Shown: in pieces, positions 21,191-31,012 of the stretch
Layout of the letters: each line of letters begins with the position of its first letter
Position numbering within the stretch: position 1 is the stretch's first letter
Notes under the pieces: generated by a model
Seen by the model: only the letters and a program-made list of their open reading frames with translations
What the model was told of the DNA's origin: nothing
The model's database searches: none
Translations under genes and position numbers: made by a program
Origin: an uncultured delta proteobacterium
Lineage (GTDB): Bacteria > Desulfobacterota > Syntrophia > Syntrophales > UBA8958
Direction of reading: 5' to 3'
Length of the DNA stretch: 64,000 nt
Assembly (NCBI GenBank): GCA_903885795.1
Contig: CAISJV010000032.1
Coordinates: 62,001 to 126,000, forward strand

Positions 21191-22030
21191 CTACTTGTCC
21201 TTTTGAAAAAGCTCCATTATTTCCCGACGCGCCTCCCCGATGGTCAGGGGAATCCGCCCGAAGGCCAGGTTGTCCTCGTGCTTCAACCGATAGATCAGCT
21301 CCGCGATCTGGGGTAGCCGCAAGCGAACCTGGCTCATCTCTTCGGGGGCAGTAAAGACGGCCTCGGGGGTTCCGCTCCTGACTATCTTGCCGTCGCTCAG
21401 GACATAGAGACGATCCAGAAAAACGGGTATCAGATCGACACTGTGGGTCGCCATAAAAATAGTCACCTTCTTTTCCCGATTGAGTTTCATGAGGAGATCC
21501 ATCATCTGGTACTCCCCCAGAGGGTCCAGACCGGCGGTGGGTTCGTCGAGGAGGAGGATCTCATGTCCCATGGAGAGGAGCCCGGCGATGCAGACCCGTT
21601 TTTTCTGGCCAAAACTTAGGTGGTGAATGGACTTTTTTGCATATACGGCCATCTCGACCGCTTCCAGGGCCTTTTTCACCCTTTTGACGACCTCTTCCTC
21701 CTCAATTCCCATGTTCATAGGACCGAAGGCGACGTCTTCAAATACCGTCGGGGCAAAAAGCTGGTCATTGGGATTCTGGAAGACAATGCCCATCTTTCCA
21801 TAAATCTCCCGGGACGACAGACGGTGGATGTCCGTCCCGTCGAGAAGGACACTTCCCTGGATATCCTTGATCATCCCGTCCATGATCTTGAGGAGCGTCG
21901 TCTTGCCCGACCCGTTATAGCCAAGGACGCCGGCAAACTCGCCTCGCCGGACGGCAAACGTTACCCCGGTAATGGCTTCCGTGCCGTCGGCGTATCGATA
22001 ACGGACATTCTTGAGGGCTAAGCGGTTCAT
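21191..22030 (-). CDS. cbiO: Cobalt ECF transporter ATPase
   Basis: ATP-binding subunit of the cobalt energy-coupling-factor transporter, 279 aa. Walker A is GYNGSGKTT (about 38-46), the Q-loop [10 protein letters not shown] is an ECF-type signature, the ABC signature is LSFGQKKR and Walker B is [13 protein letters not shown]. The ATG at 22030 overlaps the cbiQ stop as ATGA, so this start is preferred over the GTG three codons earlier. CbiQ-CbiO coupling is standard for ECF modules. The protein acts on the cytoplasmic face of the inner membrane. Confidence 0.94.
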
Positions 22031-22776
22031 ATCCCCCACAATATACCCATGACCGTTACCACCAGGCAGGATAGGAAGATCTCGGATGATCTGAACGGAC
22101 GGCTCTGAAAGAGGGGCATGTTACCGTCATATCCCCGCTGCACCATGGCCGTGGACAGGGTCTGGCTTTGCTCGAAGGCCTTGAGGATCAGGGAACCCGT
22201 CAGGATACCGAAGGAACTCAAACGATTCCGGAAGTTTGCATAACCAAGGCGGTTTTTCTGGGCATGATAAATCACCATGGCCTCCTCAAAGAGAACAAAT
22301 ATATAGCGATACGCGTACAGTAGGACTTCAATGAATCCCCGGGGGACTTTCAACCAGGAAAGGGCGGCCATGAGTTCAGGAAAAGGCGTCGCATAAACCA
22401 GGACGGCCATAAGGGAGATGGCAGCCATAATCCGGCTGCTGATGGCAATGCCTTCCGCCAGGCCTTCGCGATACCCCGTAATTTGGAATCCCAGGATATC
22501 AAAGGAAAAGAGGGGATCGTGACCGGAAAAAAAAATCTTCAACAAAAAGACGACGAGAACGATGAGGAATGGCTCAGAAAAGCGGAGCAGAAAAAGCCGC
22601 CAGGGAATTTTCATGCTGACGATAAGGGTCAGGGAGATCGCCGCCACGAGGAGTTGGAAGCCGACGCCCTGATAACTGAGGACCATGACCAGGATAATCA
22701 TGGTCACGAGGAGTTTGATTCGGGCGTCGATCCGGGAAAGCCAGTGGTCCGTGGCATAGTATTCCAGCAGGAGCAT
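22027..22776 (-). CDS. cbiQ: Cobalt ECF transporter transmembrane subunit
   Basis: EcfT-type membrane scaffold linking CbiM to CbiO, 249 aa with about five hydrophobic segments. The start contains DHWLSRIDARIKLL, the EcfT N-terminal signature, and MVQRGYDG near 210 is an ARG-type coupling motif. The ATG at 22776 overlaps the cbiM stop by one base (TGATG), so the three ECF genes are translated in series. Confidence 0.93.
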   Translation of the reverse strand: MLLLEYYATDHWLSRIDARIKLLVTMIILVMVLSYQGVGFQLLVAAISLTLIVSMKIPWRLFLLRFSEPFLIVLVVFLLKIFFSGHDPLFSFDILGFQITGYREGLAEGIAISSRIMAAISLMAVLVYATPFPELMAALSWLKVPRGFIEVLLYAYRYIFVLFEEAMVIYHAQKNRLGYANFRNRLSSFGILTGSLILKAFEQSQTLSTAMVQRGYDGNMPLFQSRPFRSSEIFLSCLVVTVMGILWGI

Positions 22777-23834
22777 CAACTTCCTCTTATCTTGCCGGAG
22801 GTCTCCGGTGCTGGTTCATCTTGCCCAGAACATATGGGCAGCCCTTTTCCCGCAATCAACACCCGCCAGTAATAACCGGCGGCAAAGCCCCCTACAGCCC
22901 CGGCAATAAGAAAAATAAAGAGGGGTAGATCACCCTGCTCCATATTGACAAGAGGTTCCTTGGGTTCCCTTCCCTGCTCTTTGGCAATCTTCTCGATTAC
23001 TGCTTCATCGACGCCCGTCCATTTAGATGCTTCGACAGGGGCGACTCCGGAAAATAAAAAAGTGACAGCAATTAAAACTGCCCCGATCACTGCTACTTCC
23101 CTGGCCTTGATGACCCGCATTTTAATCAGTAAATCCGGTCGCTTTTTATAAAGCAGCATCACCATGCCTGCGGTCATGGCCCCTTCAAGGACGCCTATGG
23201 GAAGCTGGGTGGGGATAAAGGCAATAAGGACCTTCCAGAAAAGGGGCAAAAAAGCCGCTTCTCCGCGGATTCCGGCGGCTAATTCCACCGAGGTCATAAA
23301 GTAGGTAGCCCAGTCTGCGAAAAGGCCGGCCATGAAGGCTGCTACTGCCATGTTCACATTGACGGATCGGAGGGCGCGAAAGGTCAGGAATCCCGTAAAG
23401 GAGCCCATGACACCCATGGAGACAATATCGGCCCCCAAGGTGCTCAGCCCCCCGTGGGCCATAAAAAGGGCCTGAATCAGGAGTGCCGCGGCAGTGATGA
23501 CAACACTGATGGCCGGGCCGATGAGGATCCCGGAGATGCCGGTGCCGCATGGATGGGAACAGGTTCCGGCGAAGGGAACAGGGATGGGCAGACAGGAAAT
23601 GATAAATACCACAGCGGCCATGAGACCGACAAGGGGTTTAAAGGAAAGATCATCCAGATTGCGCTTATTGAGGCGGTAGAGTCCCCAGGCAAAAAAAGGC
23701 AGGGCCACGGCAAACCAGAAGGCAGCCCAATTAAAGGGCAGCAGTCCTTCGGCAATATGCATGGCCGCCACATTCTGAGGCAGCGTCACACCGCCAATAA
23801 TGGCGATGACAAAACCGCAGCTCACCTTTTTCAT
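22776..23834 (-). CDS. cbiM: Cobalt ECF substrate-binding protein, CbiM-CbiN fusion
   Basis: 352-aa S-component for Co2+. A leader of 24 residues precedes MHIAEG; in CbiM/NikM the mature N-terminus with this His binds the metal. About seven membrane segments follow, with the conserved GTCSHPCGTGISGILIGP near 90. After about residue 250 an extra region carries one loop segment (PVEASKWTGVDEAVIEKIA) and a last transmembrane helix (about 310-330), the layout of the small partner CbiN (PDGLE-type) fused in. A GAGG lies 7 nt before the ATG. No cobalamin riboswitch core is visible in the 142-bp leader. Confidence 0.92.
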   Translation of the reverse strand: MKKVSCGFVIAIIGGVTLPQNVAAMHIAEGLLPFNWAAFWFAVALPFFAWGLYRLNKRNLDDLSFKPLVGLMAAVVFIISCLPIPVPFAGTCSHPCGTGISGILIGPAISVVITAAALLIQALFMAHGGLSTLGADIVSMGVMGSFTGFLTFRALRSVNVNMAVAAFMAGLFADWATYFMTSVELAAGIRGEAAFLPLFWKVLIAFIPTQLPIGVLEGAMTAGMVMLLYKKRPDLLIKMRVIKAREVAVIGAVLIAVTFLFSGVAPVEASKWTGVDEAVIEKIAKEQGREPKEPLVNMEQGDLPLFIFLIAGAVGGFAAGYYWRVLIAGKGLPICSGQDEPAPETSGKIRGS

Positions 23835-24704: not shown

Positions 24705-26258
24705 ATGAAGAGAATTTTGGTGACCCTATTGTCGCTGGGTCTGATCATGGTGTTTGCAATGCCCGCCGCAGCGGTAGATGTAAAGTTCAGCGGCGAATAC
24801 TATGCCCAAGGCTGGTATGTTGATAATCCCTCGGTGCTGGACAAAGGTGAAAAAGCTGGCGCCGCTTCCTGGACCAACAACTCCCTTCGTGGTCCCAACG
24901 CCTTCTATGGCCAACGATTCCGGCTCACTTCGGAGTTCCAAGTTGTAGAGGGTCTGAAACTCGTCACCCGGTTTGACGCCATGGAGAAAAGATGGGGTGA
25001 TCAGGCATGGGCCGGCGCCACTGGCGAGACCCAGAGCCGCACCCAGACACCCACCGGCTCGCCGAGCAATGGAGCTGGTAGCGCCCTCGCGGGCGCTGGT
25101 ACTGTCAAGACGCAGGAAAACATCGAATGGGAACGAGCCTATCTGGATTTCAACGTTCCCTTCGGTAAATTCCAGGTCGGTTATATGCAGTACCTTACTT
25201 GGGGCACGTCCTTTCTGGATACCACTCTTACTGCGGGCGGCATCCGTTACTACTACAACCAGGGGCCTTGGCAGGTCGTTGCCGCCACTGAAAAGCGAGC
25301 CGAATACGTCGGTCTAAATGCCAATAACATCGGCATCGCCAACGACGCCGACCGTGATCTTTATGACCTCGGTGTTACCTACAAGTTCACCCCCGGCCAG
25401 GCAGGCATCCTCTATCAGTATATGCGGAGCGCTCAAAACAAATGGCAGCAGGCTAACGGTTATCTGACCCAGCTTAACGGCTTTTACCCCTACGCACAGT
25501 TGACCTTCGGCAATTTCTTCATTGAGGCCGAGGGCGTCTACGGAACAGGGACCCTGAGATCTTATGAGAGTACCACAACAGCGGCCTCTGTGGGCGGAAC
25601 TACTCCCGCCAGCAATGCCCAGAATGTGTCGTTAAACGCGTACGCGGCCTATGTCCACGGCATGTATGACTTCAAGCCTGCCTATATAGGGGCAAAGTTC
25701 GTTTATATCAGCGGTGACGACAACTCCAACAGCGATAAGGCTTCCGGCTCAATCCTGCAGTCTCTGCAGATGAACCGCAGCTTCTATCCCACCCTGATCC
25801 TCTGGAACGACGACTATCAAAACAACCTCGGTAACATCCAGGGAAACATCCCCGCCGGCGCCACCGGCGCCAACCGCAGAACCGGTCAAACCTACGCCGT
25901 CAGGCAGGAGATGGACAACGTCTGGTTCTATCAGATCTATGCCGGTTTCAAACCCACGCCAAAAATGGACCTGAAAGCGGCTTTCTCGATCGCCAGCGCC
26001 GACAAGGCCCCGAAGAGCGACGTGGGAACGACTGGTCAGGCAGGTTACTACAACCCGGGAGCAGCGGTTCAGGAATTCGTCTCCACCAAGTACGGTAACG
26101 AACTCGATCTTACCGCTACATACAAGATCTATGACAACCTTACCTACATGATCGGTATGGGTTACCTCTGGGTAGGCGACTATTTCAAGGGCTATGACAA
26201 TAACGCCGTTGTTAAGGATAATTACCTCCTTACCCATAAGTTAACTCTGAATTTCTAA
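24705..26258 (+). CDS. Outer-membrane beta-barrel (porin-like) protein
   Basis: 517 aa with a clear Sec signal peptide (cleavage near AMPAAA-VD, residues 1-23). Many alternating amphipathic strands and Asn/Tyr/Gly-rich loops follow, and the protein ends in Phe (LTHKLTLNF), the usual recognition end for BAM-mediated insertion. It has no recognisable specificity motif. AAGGAGGAAATAA precedes the ATG, and the long A+T-rich leader with two promoters and the strong terminator suggest a highly expressed single-gene unit. The tungstate transporter operon starts 166 bp downstream on the same strand, but the terminator separates them. A role in oxyanion passage is speculation. Confidence 0.82.
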   Translation: MKRILVTLLSLGLIMVFAMPAAAVDVKFSGEYYAQGWYVDNPSVLDKGEKAGAASWTNNSLRGPNAFYGQRFRLTSEFQVVEGLKLVTRFDAMEKRWGDQAWAGATGETQSRTQTPTGSPSNGAGSALAGAGTVKTQENIEWERAYLDFNVPFGKFQVGYMQYLTWGTSFLDTTLTAGGIRYYYNQGPWQVVAATEKRAEYVGLNANNIGIANDADRDLYDLGVTYKFTPGQAGILYQYMRSAQNKWQQANGYLTQLNGFYPYAQLTFGNFFIEAEGVYGTGTLRSYESTTTAASVGGTTPASNAQNVSLNAYAAYVHGMYDFKPAYIGAKFVYISGDDNSNSDKASGSILQSLQMNRSFYPTLILWNDDYQNNLGNIQGNIPAGATGANRRTGQTYAVRQEMDNVWFYQIYAGFKPTPKMDLKAAFSIASADKAPKSDVGTTGQAGYYNPGAAVQEFVSTKYGNELDLTATYKIYDNLTYMIGMGYLWVGDYFKGYDNNAVVKDNYLLTHKLTLNF

Positions 26259-26281
26259 ATTCTTTGGGACAATAGAAGTGT

Positions 26282-26316
26282 AAAATGCCCCTGCGATTTT
26301 GTGCAGGGGCATTTTT
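26282..26316 (+). terminator. Strong intrinsic terminator after the porin gene
   Basis: ATGCCCCTGC (26285-26294), an 8-nt loop and GCAGGGGCAT (26303-26312) are followed by TTTT; A-T pairs extend the stem further. It lies 26 bp after the porin stop codon. Confidence 0.95.
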
Positions 26317-26424
26317 ATATAAGCTACCATTGGGTGTTTGTATTTGTCACAATAAGTTGCTTTTTGTCTTGATAATCGCCCGAGGATCATCTAAGCTGCC
26401 CCTGCTTCAGAAAAGGAGGAGTAC

Positions 26425-27342
26425 ATGCCCGCGGAGATGATGAACACCAAGGAAGTAGCCAAGTATCTTAATATCAATGACAAGCAGGTTTATGCCCTGA
26501 TCCGGGAAGGGGGAATACCGGCAACGCGGGCCACGGGAAAGTGGATTTTCCCGAAGAAGCTGATCGATGAATGGATTGAAACCACGGCCCGCGACGGTTT
26601 GTCCCAGGCCCGCCAGAAAAGCACCGCCATCTCCGGGGCTCTCCTTGCGGCGGGGAGTAACGATCCAATTTTAGACATCCTCCAGACCACGCTGCGGAGA
26701 TTGCACCCCGATTTATATATCTTTTCCGCCAATACAGGGAGTACGGAGGGACTGGCAGCCCTGAATATGGGCCATACGGATATTGCCTGGTCTCACCTGT
26801 GGGATCCGGAAAGCGGACAATATAACACGCCCTTTCTCTCTTCCCGCCTCCCCCGGATCGATGCCGTCGTGGTCAACCTGTTCCACCGGGATATTGGTTT
26901 GGTCTTCGCCGCAGATAACCCCCTGAACATCAGGAATATCGATGACTTGCAGCAACCCGGCCTTCGCTTCGTCAACCGCCAGGAGGGATCAGGAACCCGC
27001 CTGCTCATTGATTATCATCTAAAAAAGGCCGGAATCAGTACGGATGGAATCATTGGTTATGAAAATGAGGTCTTCACCCATCTCGAGGTCGGCCTGGCCA
27101 TTATCTCCCATCAGGCGGACGTGGGAATGGCCACCGGATCTGTTTCCCGGATGCTTGGGCTTTCGTTTCTCCCCGTCACCAAAGAACGATTCGATATGAT
27201 CTTAGATAAGAAAACTTACTTTGAAAAAGGCGTTCAGAGTTTCATCGACACGATAAGATCCGATGCCTTCCGCAAAGGCGTCGAGAAGCTGGGGCATTAC
27301 GATTTTTATGAATCGGGAAAGATTCTGCATGCCAGGAACTGA
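26425..27342 (+). CDS. HTH (excisionase-type) regulator with periplasmic-binding-protein-like domain
   Basis: 305 aa with no signal peptide. Residues about 6-55 form an excisionase/MerR-like winged helix (MNTKEVAKYLNINDKQVYALIREGGIPA). Residues about 85-300 form a PBP-like domain related to molybdate/tungstate-type binding proteins, with a phosphate-loop-like NRQEGSGTRLLIDYHL near 188. This architecture occurs in one-component regulators of oxyanion uptake and molybdenum-cofactor genes. It is the first gene of the tup operon, 29 bp ahead of the first binding protein. I infer that it senses cytoplasmic tungstate or molybdate and controls the operon. AAGGAGGAGTAC precedes the ATG. Confidence 0.85.
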   Translation: MPAEMMNTKEVAKYLNINDKQVYALIREGGIPATRATGKWIFPKKLIDEWIETTARDGLSQARQKSTAISGALLAAGSNDPILDILQTTLRRLHPDLYIFSANTGSTEGLAALNMGHTDIAWSHLWDPESGQYNTPFLSSRLPRIDAVVVNLFHRDIGLVFAADNPLNIRNIDDLQQPGLRFVNRQEGSGTRLLIDYHLKKAGISTDGIIGYENEVFTHLEVGLAIISHQADVGMATGSVSRMLGLSFLPVTKERFDMILDKKTYFEKGVQSFIDTIRSDAFRKGVEKLGHYDFYESGKILHARN

Positions 27343-27371
27343 AAATGAAAACTCAAAAAAGGAGGCTGCAC

Positions 27372-28226
27372 ATGAAAAAACGTTTATTGCTGTCGCTTTT
27401 GATCCTGATGATGGCGCTGCCGGGGCTGCTCGGGGCGAAGGATAAGAAATTTATCCTCGTAGCCTCAACCATCGGCCCTATTGACGCCGGTATCGTTGGG
27501 GTTTTGGAAGAAGGATTTGAAAAGGATACGGGCATTCGGGTCCGCCACGTCGGCGCGGGTACAGGCGCGGCAATGGATATTGCAAGAAAATGCAATATTG
27601 ATCTGGTCATGGTCCATGCCAAGGCCCTGGAAGAGAAATTTGTCGCCGAGGGATATGGCACGGAACGGATTCCTCTTATGTACAACGACTTCGTCATCGT
27701 GGGGCCCCCAAGCGATCCCGCTGGAATCAAGGGTATGAGGATGGCCGGCGAAGCTTTGAAAAAGATCGCCAACGCGGGGGGGTTGTTTATTACCAGGGGC
27801 GACAAATCGGGCACCCATATCGCGGAAATGGACCTTTGGAAGGCGGCGGGGATCAAGCCGGCCGGTCCCTGGTACGTGACTTATGAAAAAGGCGCCGAAG
27901 GAAATGTGCCCACCCTCCGTTTCACCGATCAAAAAGGGGCCTATACGGTAATCGACCGGGCGACAGTCCTGGCCATGAAAAAAGACATCAAACTCGAAAT
28001 TCTCGTCACCGGTGATGAGGCCCTGCTGAACCGCATCTCCCTGATCCCGGTAAATCCCAATAAATGTCCCCAGGCCAATCTCAAGGAAACCATGATATTC
28101 GTGAAATGGCTGACAGACCCGAATAAGGGGCAAAAGATCATCCAAACTTTCGGGGTAAAGGAATATGGAAATCCCATGTTCTTCCCCGATTCCATTCCAT
28201 GGCAAAAGAGCCAGGGCATTAAATAA
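27372..28226 (+). CDS. TupA-like oxyanion-binding protein, divergent paralogue
   Basis: 284-aa extracytoplasmic solute-binding protein with signal peptide (about 1-21). The start at 27372 is chosen because AAGGAGG lies 7 nt upstream, although an in-frame ATG exists at 27345. It aligns along its length with the next gene: NDFVIVGPPSDPA, (R)GDKSGTH, and the C-terminal NPMFFPD. Where TupA proteins have TTTS, it has STIG (residues 32-35, in ASTIGPIDAG). That loop contacts the oxyanion in TupA, so this protein may bind something else or bind differently. It shares the operon with one permease and one ATPase. Confidence 0.85.
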   Translation: MKKRLLLSLLILMMALPGLLGAKDKKFILVASTIGPIDAGIVGVLEEGFEKDTGIRVRHVGAGTGAAMDIARKCNIDLVMVHAKALEEKFVAEGYGTERIPLMYNDFVIVGPPSDPAGIKGMRMAGEALKKIANAGGLFITRGDKSGTHIAEMDLWKAAGIKPAGPWYVTYEKGAEGNVPTLRFTDQKGAYTVIDRATVLAMKKDIKLEILVTGDEALLNRISLIPVNPNKCPQANLKETMIFVKWLTDPNKGQKIIQTFGVKEYGNPMFFPDSIPWQKSQGIK

Positions 28227-28246
28227 GAGCATACGGAGGACAGCAC

Positions 28247-29119
28247 ATGAAGAGGTTAACGAGCTTAACTTGTTATTATTACTTAATTTTCACCCTGCTG
28301 ATACTTGTCGGCGTAAACACAGTGAACGCCGCCCCGGCCCAACCCAAACAGAAAAACATTATTCTGGCCACCACGACCAGCACCCAGGACACGGGTCTGT
28401 TGGACGTTCTCATTCCGATCTTTGAAAAGAAGACCGGCTATTTCGTCAAGACCATCGCCGTCGGGTCCGGTCAGGCAATGACCATGGGTGCCAAAGGAGA
28501 GGCAGATGTCCTGCTGGTCCACTCCCAGGCGGCGGAAAAGAAATTCATGACCGATGGCAACGGCGTTAATCGCCGCCTGGTTATGCACAATGATTTTATC
28601 ATCGTCGGACCGCCGTCAGACCCGGCAACAATCAGACAATCAAAAAAGGCGGCAGAGGGATTTAAAAAGATTTCCATGACTAAGGCACTGTTCGTCTCCA
28701 GAGGTGACAATTCGGGGACCAATGCCAAGGAAAATGAAGTCTGGAAGGCCGCCGGGATCCAGCCGGAAGGGCAGAAGTGGTACCAACAGACCGGCCTCGG
28801 CATGGGACAGACCCTCGGCGTGACGGCAGAGAAGAAAGGCTACACCCTTGCCGACCGGGGAACCTATCTGGCCATGAAAAAGAACCTTGGCCTTGACATC
28901 CTTCTGGAGGGAGACGGCGTGCTCCTCAATATCTATCATGTCATCGAGGTAAACCATGCCAAATGGCCGAAAGTAAACGCCGCCGGAGCCAAAGCCTTCG
29001 CCGATTTCATGATCTCCAAACAGACGCAGGCTACCATCAAGACATTTGGCATTGAAAAATTCGGCTCTCCCCTCTTTTTTCCCGATGCGGAAAAGAAGAT
29101 AGAAGACTTGGGAAAATAA
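28247..29119 (+). CDS. tupA: Tungstate-binding protein TupA
   Basis: Periplasmic high-affinity tungstate receptor, 290 aa. The signal sequence spans about residues 1-28. TTTSTQDTGLLD (42-53) is the canonical TupA oxyanion loop, and VGSGQAM (about 71) and SRGDNSGT (about 150) complete the usual ligand shell. The final segment SPLFFPD is typical. AGGAC lies before the ATG, and it sits 20 bp after the first binding protein and one base before tupB. Tungsten use would serve W-dependent formate or aldehyde enzymes located elsewhere. Confidence 0.93.
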   Translation: MKRLTSLTCYYYLIFTLLILVGVNTVNAAPAQPKQKNIILATTTSTQDTGLLDVLIPIFEKKTGYFVKTIAVGSGQAMTMGAKGEADVLLVHSQAAEKKFMTDGNGVNRRLVMHNDFIIVGPPSDPATIRQSKKAAEGFKKISMTKALFVSRGDNSGTNAKENEVWKAAGIQPEGQKWYQQTGLGMGQTLGVTAEKKGYTLADRGTYLAMKKNLGLDILLEGDGVLLNIYHVIEVNHAKWPKVNAAGAKAFADFMISKQTQATIKTFGIEKFGSPLFFPDAEKKIEDLGK

Positions 29120-29120
29120 A

Positions 29121-29819
29121 ATGGACATAATCATTGAAGGGATCAAACAGGCCCTTTCCCTGCTTATCAGCCTCGATCCCGAGGTTATGGGCATCACGTG
29201 GCTGTCCCTGAAGGTCTCGGGGACGGCCACCCTGATCAGCCTTTTCATCGGTATAGGCATCGGAACGGCGGTAGCCCTGACATCATTTCCCGGACGGCAG
29301 ATTGTCGTCAGCCTTATCAATACGGGGATGGCCCTGCCGCCGGTGGTCGTCGGGCTCTTCGTCACAATCTTCCTCTGGCGGAACGGCCCCTTCGGCGCCC
29401 TTGAGATCCTCTACACCCCCATGGCCATCATCATCGCCCAGACCATCATCGCCACCCCCATTGTGATGGGTATCACCCTGGCTGCCATGCAGCAGTTACC
29501 CCGGAAATTACGACTCCAGATCCTGGCCCTGGGGGCAACACGTTTTCAGATGGTCTGGCTCCTTATCAAAGAAGCAAAACTGTCGCTTATGGCGGCGGTC
29601 ATGGCCGGTTTCGGGGGGGTCATCTCCGAGGTCGGGGCATCCATAATGGTCGGCGGCAACATCAAGGGCTATACACGCGTTCTGACAACGGCCACGGTCA
29701 TGGAGACCAGCAAGGGTAATTTCGACGTGGCTATTGCCCTCGGCGTGATCCTCCTCCTTTTCGCCTTTGCCATCAACCTGGTCCTGACCAGAGTTCAGCA
29801 GCGAGAGCGGCCACGATGA
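29121..29819 (+). CDS. tupB: Tungstate ABC transporter permease
   Basis: 232 aa with about five to six transmembrane helices. The cytoplasmic EAA loop (about 145-165, ALGATRFQMVWLLIKEAKLSL) docks the ATPase. The closing segment TTATVMETSKGNFDVAIALG is typical of TupB. It overlaps tupC by 4 nt (ATGA). Confidence 0.93.
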   Translation: MDIIIEGIKQALSLLISLDPEVMGITWLSLKVSGTATLISLFIGIGIGTAVALTSFPGRQIVVSLINTGMALPPVVVGLFVTIFLWRNGPFGALEILYTPMAIIIAQTIIATPIVMGITLAAMQQLPRKLRLQILALGATRFQMVWLLIKEAKLSLMAAVMAGFGGVISEVGASIMVGGNIKGYTRVLTTATVMETSKGNFDVAIALGVILLLFAFAINLVLTRVQQRERPR

Positions 29820-31012
29820 CTGCGAATGGGCCAAGTATGCCGATCCTGCAAGGAGAGAACATCCAGGTGCAGCGGGGCGGGAAGCGGATACTGGATGTTT
29901 CTTCCTTTAGAATCGTCCCCGGGGAAGTTGTTTCTGTCATCGGACCCAACGGGGCGGGGAAAACGACCCTCCTTCAGGCCCTCTCCCAGCTCATTCATCT
30001 CGGAAAGGGGGTTATTTATTTTCAGGGCAAAAAGATCGGCGCTGACATGACACCACTTGACTACCGCCGCTGCCTGGCGATGGTCTTTCAGGAGGCACTG
30101 CTCTTTGATACAACGGTTTACGCCAATGTGGCCTCGGGACTGAAGATCCGCGGTTTGAAGTCATCAGAAATATTTTCAATCGTGAATACCCGTTTGGAGC
30201 AATTCGGAATCGGTCACCTCCGGGACCGCTCCGCCAAGACCCTCTCCGGCGGTGAGGCCCAGCGGACAAGCCTCGCTCGGGCCTTTGCCATTCAGCCGCA
30301 GCTCCTTTTTCTTGACGAACCCTTTGCTGCCCTCGATCCCCCGACCCGGGAAGCCCTCCTCGAAGATCTCAACCGCGTTCTCCGGGCATCGGGAATGACG
30401 GCCATTATGGCCACCCATGACCAGGTGGAAGCACTGAGACTGTCCGACCGGATCGCCGTGATGAACGAGGGTAGAGTCGTCCAGATCGGCCCGGCGGCGG
30501 AAGTGATGAATCATCCCGTCGATGAATTCGTCGCATCTTTTGTAGGGATGGAAACCATTTTTGAGGGAAAGGTTGTAAATTGTGAACGAGGTACAGCAAT
30601 GATCACCGTCAACAGGAGCGCTTACCCGGCTGCCGCTGACGCTCTACCAATCAGCATGACCGCCGCCCCGTTACCCATGGCGGAAGCAACAGATACAGAC
30701 ATGAATGGCCTTATTATCGAAGTATCCGGCCAGGCCAAGGCGGGGGAACAGCTTCTCTGCTGCATCCGCCCCGAACACGTCACCCTCTCCCCAGGCGTGC
30801 GTACAGACCGGAGCAGCGCCAGAAATGCCTTTCCAGCCGTCATCTCCCGGATCAGTCCCGCCGGCGCCTTCTATAAAGTCCACATGAACGGCGGCTTTCC
30901 TCTTGTGGCCTATGTAACAGTCCAATCAATAGAAGATCTGGACCTGCGCGTAGGGGCCACAGTCACCGCCTCCTTCAAGGCCACTGCCGTCCACCTGATC
31001 CGGCGGGGCTAA
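29816..31012 (+). CDS. tupC: Tungstate ABC transporter ATPase with TOBE domain
   Basis: 398 aa. Residues about 8-235 are the ABC domain: Walker A GPNGAGKTT (about 42), Q-loop VFQEALLF, signature LSGGEAQR and Walker B LLFLDEPFAALDP. Residues about 240-395 are a TOBE-like tail that in related importers binds oxyanion and trans-inhibits transport. The start ATG overlaps the tupB stop; a later ATG (MPILQGEN) would also fit. It is the last gene of the operon, and the convergent acyl-CoA dehydrogenase stops 69 bp away. No terminator is evident between them. Confidence 0.93.
   Translation: MTANGPSMPILQGENIQVQRGGKRILDVSSFRIVPGEVVSVIGPNGAGKTTLLQALSQLIHLGKGVIYFQGKKIGADMTPLDYRRCLAMVFQEALLFDTTVYANVASGLKIRGLKSSEIFSIVNTRLEQFGIGHLRDRSAKTLSGGEAQRTSLARAFAIQPQLLFLDEPFAALDPPTREALLEDLNRVLRASGMTAIMATHDQVEALRLSDRIAVMNEGRVVQIGPAAEVMNHPVDEFVASFVGMETIFEGKVVNCERGTAMITVNRSAYPAAADALPISMTAAPLPMAEATDTDMNGLIIEVSGQAKAGEQLLCCIRPEHVTLSPGVRTDRSSARNAFPAVISRISPAGAFYKVHMNGGFPLVAYVTVQSIEDLDLRVGATVTASFKATAVHLIRRG

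Follow-up and report, generated by a model that had tools for sequence, protein, structure and literature searches.

The locus described here raises the question of why a tungstate-type import operon with one permease and one ATPase should specify two receptors, and whether the two serve the same anion. The window, by which we mean the whole stretch of 64,000 nucleotides analysed, contains between positions 26425 and 31012 genes in the order regulator–R1–R2–permease–ATPase, R1 and R2 being the receptors. The original prediction had placed two TupA-like receptors ahead of one permease and one ATPase, and the open reading frames are as it described; the interval that it covered, 26425–29119, ends at R2, and the permease and ATPase genes lie beyond. 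The features of the region are as follows.

24705..26258, + strand: porin-like outer-membrane protein (517 aa); NCBIfam DESULF_POR1, E=1e-18, 67 bits against a cut-off of 250
26278..26320, + strand: strong terminator-like hairpin in the gap between porin and regulator; -24.9 kcal/mol, z -5.4, 0/200 shuffles as good
26425..27342, + strand: regulator with HTH_17 and PBP_like domains (Pfam domain matches)
27345..28226, + strand: receptor R1, STIGP-type TupA paralogue; likely true start 27372
27465..27491, + strand: R1 loop STIGPIDAG, residues 41–49, equivalent by alignment to TTTSTQDTG of R2
27903..27905, + strand: codon of R1 Asn187
28035..28037, + strand: codon of R1 Ile231
28247..29119, + strand: receptor R2, TTTS-type TupA; TTTSTQDTG loop at 28370–28396
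29121..29819, + strand: permease, TupB-type; NF038017 ABC_perm1 271 bits (cut-off 100), TupB NF041773 169 bits (cut-off 320)
29816..31012, + strand: ATPase with C-terminal TOBE domain; ABC_tran 1e-28, TOBE 1e-14, best NCBIfam model WtpC, 276 bits (cut-off 440)

Over 272 residues R1 and R2 share 41% identity. The likely start of R1 is the in-frame ATG at 27372, which follows AGGAGG at 27360–27365 and gives a protein of 284 residues, a length found in several relatives. TupA is the nearest NCBIfam model for both receptors; against NF041772, R1 scores 169 bits and R2 244 bits, neither reaching the cut-off of 400, which is strict for the class of the window since it is passed in none of 155 genomes. 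The AF2 model of R1 (pLDDT 92) finds its best PDB match in TupA of D. alaskensis (5my5), with a TM score of 0.91 by target length; the fold of TupA from G. sulfurreducens (3lr1) is likewise similar (0.84), and the two proteins share 40–42% identity with R1. As in TupA, the gene lies beside tupB and tupC (29121–31012). The ModA model TIGR01256 does not match R1, the one match in its own genome (C44:54745–55389) being another gene. Among the best 80 of 580 stretches retained from a genome scan, the nearest named relative is a Syntrophus bin (L001), whose R1 is 89% identical.

The TTTS motif is named as the signature of TupA receptors (PMC4139814), and PMC5517513 and PMC4139814 place this loop at the oxyanion site, bearing out what the original prediction had stated. 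In the D. alaskensis protein the site is given as Thr9–11, Ser12, His59, Arg118, Thr124 and Asp170 (PMC5517513). The R1 equivalents of these eight residues are S41, T42, I43, G44, H91, R151, T157 and D204. Thus R1 has the whole set His59, Arg118, Thr124 and Asp170, together with the equivalent of Thr10, and differs from TupA in replacing TTTS by STIG followed by Pro. R2 carries the signature motif, so that the two loops differ at the same aligned place, as had been claimed.

These differences are fixed across the receptor types. In a comparison of 281 aligned receptors, from which those of L039 and L042 and rows shorter than 230 residues had been excluded beforehand, residues 43–44 read IG in 108, TS in 171 and another loop in two, with no intermediates. 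With L224_4400 and L061 assigned to neither set and duplicates removed, 91 distinct STIGP and 155 distinct TTTS sequences remained, in all of which T42, H91, R151, T157 and D204 are invariant. Residue 187 is Asn in every STIGP receptor (91/91), accompanied by a three-residue insertion, and Met in every TTTS receptor (155/155), without exception. Residue 231 is Ile (86/91) or Met (5/91) in the former set and Tyr in the latter (155/155). The Thr9 to Ser change seen in R1 occurs also in 15 of the 155 TTTS sequences. The STIGP set was defined by I43, G44 and P45, and it is only residues 187 and 231 and the kept residues that are independent of this definition. A smaller comparison of 118 rows placed L035 (loop not covered), L045 (<200 aa) and L061 (other loop) in neither set.

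In the R1 model, I43, T157, N187 and the residue after D204 are helix starts. Our reading of the pocket rests on the published TupA residues and this model secondary structure, from which residues 187 and 231 probably line the pocket, with 187 facing the ligand. The change is wider than the original prediction had drawn it: residues 187 and 231 change along with the loop. A profile comparison with E. coli ModA (probability 6) was too weak for residue mapping.

Phylogenetic trees were built without the loop and insertion columns. In a tree of 44 rows the STIGP receptors lie on one side of a branch (SH-aLRT 98), and in a tree of 28 rows that includes TupA sequences closer to the NF041772 profile they form a clade with bootstrap and SH-aLRT support of 100/100; the 21 sampled TTTS partners do not form a clade (p-AU 0.0003). 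Clustering inside canonical TupA, which the original prediction had named as the result that would tell against a specialised R1, was not found, because R1 falls in a separate clade outside the TTTS sequences. Depending on the root, this clade may be sister to the TupA family or an early branch inside it. The fixed STIGP residues trace to one branch and therefore represent one change, subsequently kept.

The clade includes Thermodesulfobacteriota, Bacillota, Acidobacteriota and Nitrospirota. Relatives were collected by a scan of species genomes, of which the best 80 of 580 confirmed stretches were taken; among these, the loop is STIGP[IV][DE][AS]G (TTIGP in L043) wherever it is covered in L001–L045, L047 and L050, which come from Syntrophaceae, Smithella, Geobacteraceae, Pelotomaculum, other Bacillota, Holophagaceae and a Nitrospirota bin. 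Further down these 80, most loci have a TTTS or STTS loop; L061 carries a different loop, and L058 is truncated. A third receptor type, with the loop ATGSP[GY]ELG, was seen at L224:4400-5347, where it is paired with a TTTS TupA, and at L061:4996.

An exact DNA pattern for the signature, which therefore misses receptors with a changed residue, gave 72 sites in 70 of the 155 genomes of the class; the reversed pattern gave none in the same genomes, which, with the clean split at residues 43–44, shows the signature to exceed chance. In a sample of the phylum 20 of 395 genomes matched, eight of them in the class, with three reversed-pattern hits; of the 12 matches outside the class seven were read, and all seven hold R1. 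The phylum of the Holophagaceae bin yielded matches in 6/247 genomes (R1 in four of five fetched) and that of the Bacillota bin in 7/299 (R1 in six of seven). Scans beyond the phylum sample gave one further reversed-pattern hit, and L237 and L240 are chance pattern hits with no receptor. The signature is rarer outside the class than within it.

R1 is closely tied to R2. At 68 of the 72 STIGP sites in the class a TTTS TupA lies downstream on the same strand within 3.5 kb; one of these sites, in G067, is an R1 remnant. Of the four unpaired sites, two (G080 and G081) are at the beginning of a contig and have their TTTS gene on a different one; in G148 the R2 gene is cut off by the contig end, and in G074 the contig stops within R1 and there is no TTTS match. 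R1 was found without a TTTS match in two of ten genomes checked, in both cases at a contig end. A single TupB-type permease exceeds the cut-off in 66 of the 70 carriers; G076 and G125 have two, G063 and G084 none. In nine genomes the stretch read (3 kb only for three of them) showed no permease next to R1, and all nine had exactly one TupB-type permease.

The 68 STIGP loci compared for gene order, which leave out four of the 72 sites (G043, G059, G076:C294 and G081), usually read regulator–R1–R2–TupB–TupC, and the 38 TTTS-only loci regulator–R2–TupB–TupC, so that one class shows the same operon both with and without R1. A P5-type ATPase is labelled in 60/68 STIGP versus 21/38 TTTS-only loci; the two sets are therefore not matched by kinship. 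Relatives of the regulator occur at 54/68 STIGP and 25/38 TTTS-only loci, where it heads operons that lack R1. The original prediction had counted three related binding modules in the operon, which holds loosely: the regulator domain does belong to the PBP superfamily, but its main match is to a different Pfam family, PF12727 (E 5e-66), the match to PF12849 (2e-4) being below the cut-off.

We consider it moderately probable that R1 is a second periplasmic receptor of a single TupBC importer, working beside R2 with a differing preference. R1 and the ordinary tungstate receptor R2 would then both feed the one importer. R1 would dock on the same permease as R2, since many residues beyond the published pocket never vary in either receptor type: 28 columns are invariant over 52 receptors of both kinds, and only five are published pocket residues. 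It would still bind an anion of the tungstate/molybdate type, because the His, Arg, Thr and Asp of the pocket are kept throughout and Mo/W genes recur nearby. Its preference would differ from that of R2, because T→I and S→G remove two hydroxyls from the lobe-A loop, the Tyr is lost and Asn replaces Met. As ligand, molybdate, thiolated molybdate or tungstate, and tungstate bound with a different affinity are the likely candidates. CysP/Sbp (sulfate/thiosulfate) and LivJ/LivK are pairs of receptors that serve a single importer; the working principle proposed for R1 and R2 resembles theirs, by analogy only. Titles and abstract starts among the matches listed from the open-licence literature contained neither a STIGP-type receptor nor a two-receptor tup operon.

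The principal alternative is that R1 shares its tungstate ligand with R2 and tunes affinity or capacity only, a reading that overlaps in part with the one just given. The retention of Thr42, His91, Arg151, Thr157 and Asp204 in 91/91 STIGP sequences favours it, as does an operon that is otherwise a tup operon. A useful yardstick is VupA of the cyanobacterial vupABC system, a TupA-family receptor for another metal that is 36–37% identical to R1; measurements on the A. variabilis vup system established its vanadate role (PMC4284476). VupA keeps TTS, Met and Tyr and changes T9 to M and H59 to N, unlike R1, which has STIG in place of MTTS and keeps the His. These two substitutions, with TTS kept, are a candidate cause of the vanadate choice in VupA. 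At the eight published pocket positions VupA thus changes two and R1 three, one of them only Thr to Ser; R1 has in addition the changes at 187 and 231, both of which are placed in the pocket by inference. R1 loses the Ser described as pointing to the metal site, and with the changes linked to it this loss is no smaller than the change at the published pocket positions of VupA, which weighs against mere tuning. The R1 change is at least comparable to that of VupA, which supports, and does not prove, a change of ligand. We regard the tuning of affinity alone as possible, though short of an even prospect. The VupA genes compared here are those beside vnfD on two Nostoc plasmids (L245:8884-9765 and L246:8884-9768), named by this position and by PMC6645180.

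A more specific form of the two-receptor proposal is that R1 receives an anion such as partly thiolated tungstate or molybdate, so that TupBC would take two chemical species through two receptors and, in some lineages, would have its own porin. Thiolated forms of both oxyanions are expected in sulfidic water, and it is this habitat, with the loss of hydroxyl donors, that makes them candidates. We know of no assigned bacterial receptor for either, and the word thiotungstate was absent from titles and abstract starts among the matches listed in the open-licence literature. A porin like that at 24705–26258 lies near 16/68 STIGP loci, the window included, versus 1/38 TTTS-only loci (p 0.005, kinship uncorrected), and in three loci it lies between R1 and R2 (L114:5346-6980, L115:4812-6419 and L116:4835-6166). 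A porin within a tup operon could possibly provide a dedicated outer-membrane entry for the anion. Genomes hold up to eight relatives of such porins, so the link with the operon is lineage-specific. In its full form we rate this proposal as rather unlikely.

In the window the porin gene would form its own transcription unit. The hairpin at 26278–26320, which the consensus scan does not list, separates it from the regulator. The segment 24400–31400 has no Rfam match up to E 0.5 that would indicate a riboswitch. Upstream, at 21191–23834, are genes resembling, by eye, a cobalt/nickel ECF uptake system (CbiM, CbiQ and CbiO).

R1 might instead bind molybdate and so allow TupBC to import both Mo and W. 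Molybdopterin genes recur nearby: among the neighbour clusters of 47 named loci are MoaE-like (5), MoeA-like (6), MoaC-like (4) and ModE-like (3) genes, MoaE and MoaC being assigned by Pfam (members scanned) and the MoeA- and ModE-like genes by eye, and the neighbourhood points to Mo/W. Nevertheless, ModABC is encoded in the same genome, close to a ModE-like gene, and ModA exceeds the cut-off in 57 of the 70 carriers, so that R1 does not stand in for ModA. R1 could still offer a second route for molybdate; we think a dual importer of this kind unlikely. ModA shares the PBP fold and is a receptor for Mo/W oxyanions, as R1 is proposed to be, but it has only about 15% identity to R1 and a TM score near 0.67 by target length.

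Two simpler accounts were rejected. ModA in the same genome and in those 57/70 carriers excludes R1 as a simple stand-in for it; ModA is in fact commoner in carriers than in the 38 TTTS-only genomes (57/70 versus 22/38, p 0.012, kinship uncorrected). Tungsten-enzyme demand as the driver was set aside because AFOR copy number does not differ (4.1 versus 4.9 on average, p 0.29) and so does not explain the presence of R1. Neither of the traits tested, AFOR copies and ModA, explains which genomes have R1.

R1 genes are not always within the operon as found here. R1 is last in the operon in a Syntrophomonadaceae bin (L037) and a Desulfovibrio bin (L047), and in Geomonas, Holophagaceae and others it has no permease near it and may serve a purpose other than transport. 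In Holophagaceae an unlinked R1 precedes, on one strand, the gene of a CHASE histidine kinase (Pfam; L041:6980-9595) and, in a second locus, that of a kinase with a near-identical start (L042:7086-9704). Such cases would suit a role as sensor or buffer in the periplasm, with no delivery to the importer; as a general account of R1 this is decidedly unlikely, tupB being in the same stretch in 62 of the 68 STIGP loci of the class.

R1 is dispensable, since in 38 genomes of the class a TTTS TupA is present and the STIGP signature absent. An R1 remnant of about 260 bases that keeps the STIGP pattern and encodes no receptor lies between the regulator and R2 at L167:5406-5668. Across five relatives within the genus dN/dS is 0.10–0.14 for R1 and 0.09–0.20 for R2, values by which R1 is under purifying selection. 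That R1 is a functionless, decaying duplicate is thus highly improbable: one genome does keep a mere remnant between regulator and R2, but the dN/dS of 0.10–0.14 and the fixation of residues over several phyla speak against it.

Overall, our preferred reading remains that of two receptors with differing preferences serving one TupBC importer. The solved TupA structures represent essentially one kind of pocket, and R1 and R2 provide a matched pair that has been kept side by side in several phyla. The residues that change together between them bear on how receptors discriminate tungstate from molybdate, and tungsten uptake in syntrophic and metal-reducing bacteria may have been wrongly attributed to a single kind of receptor.
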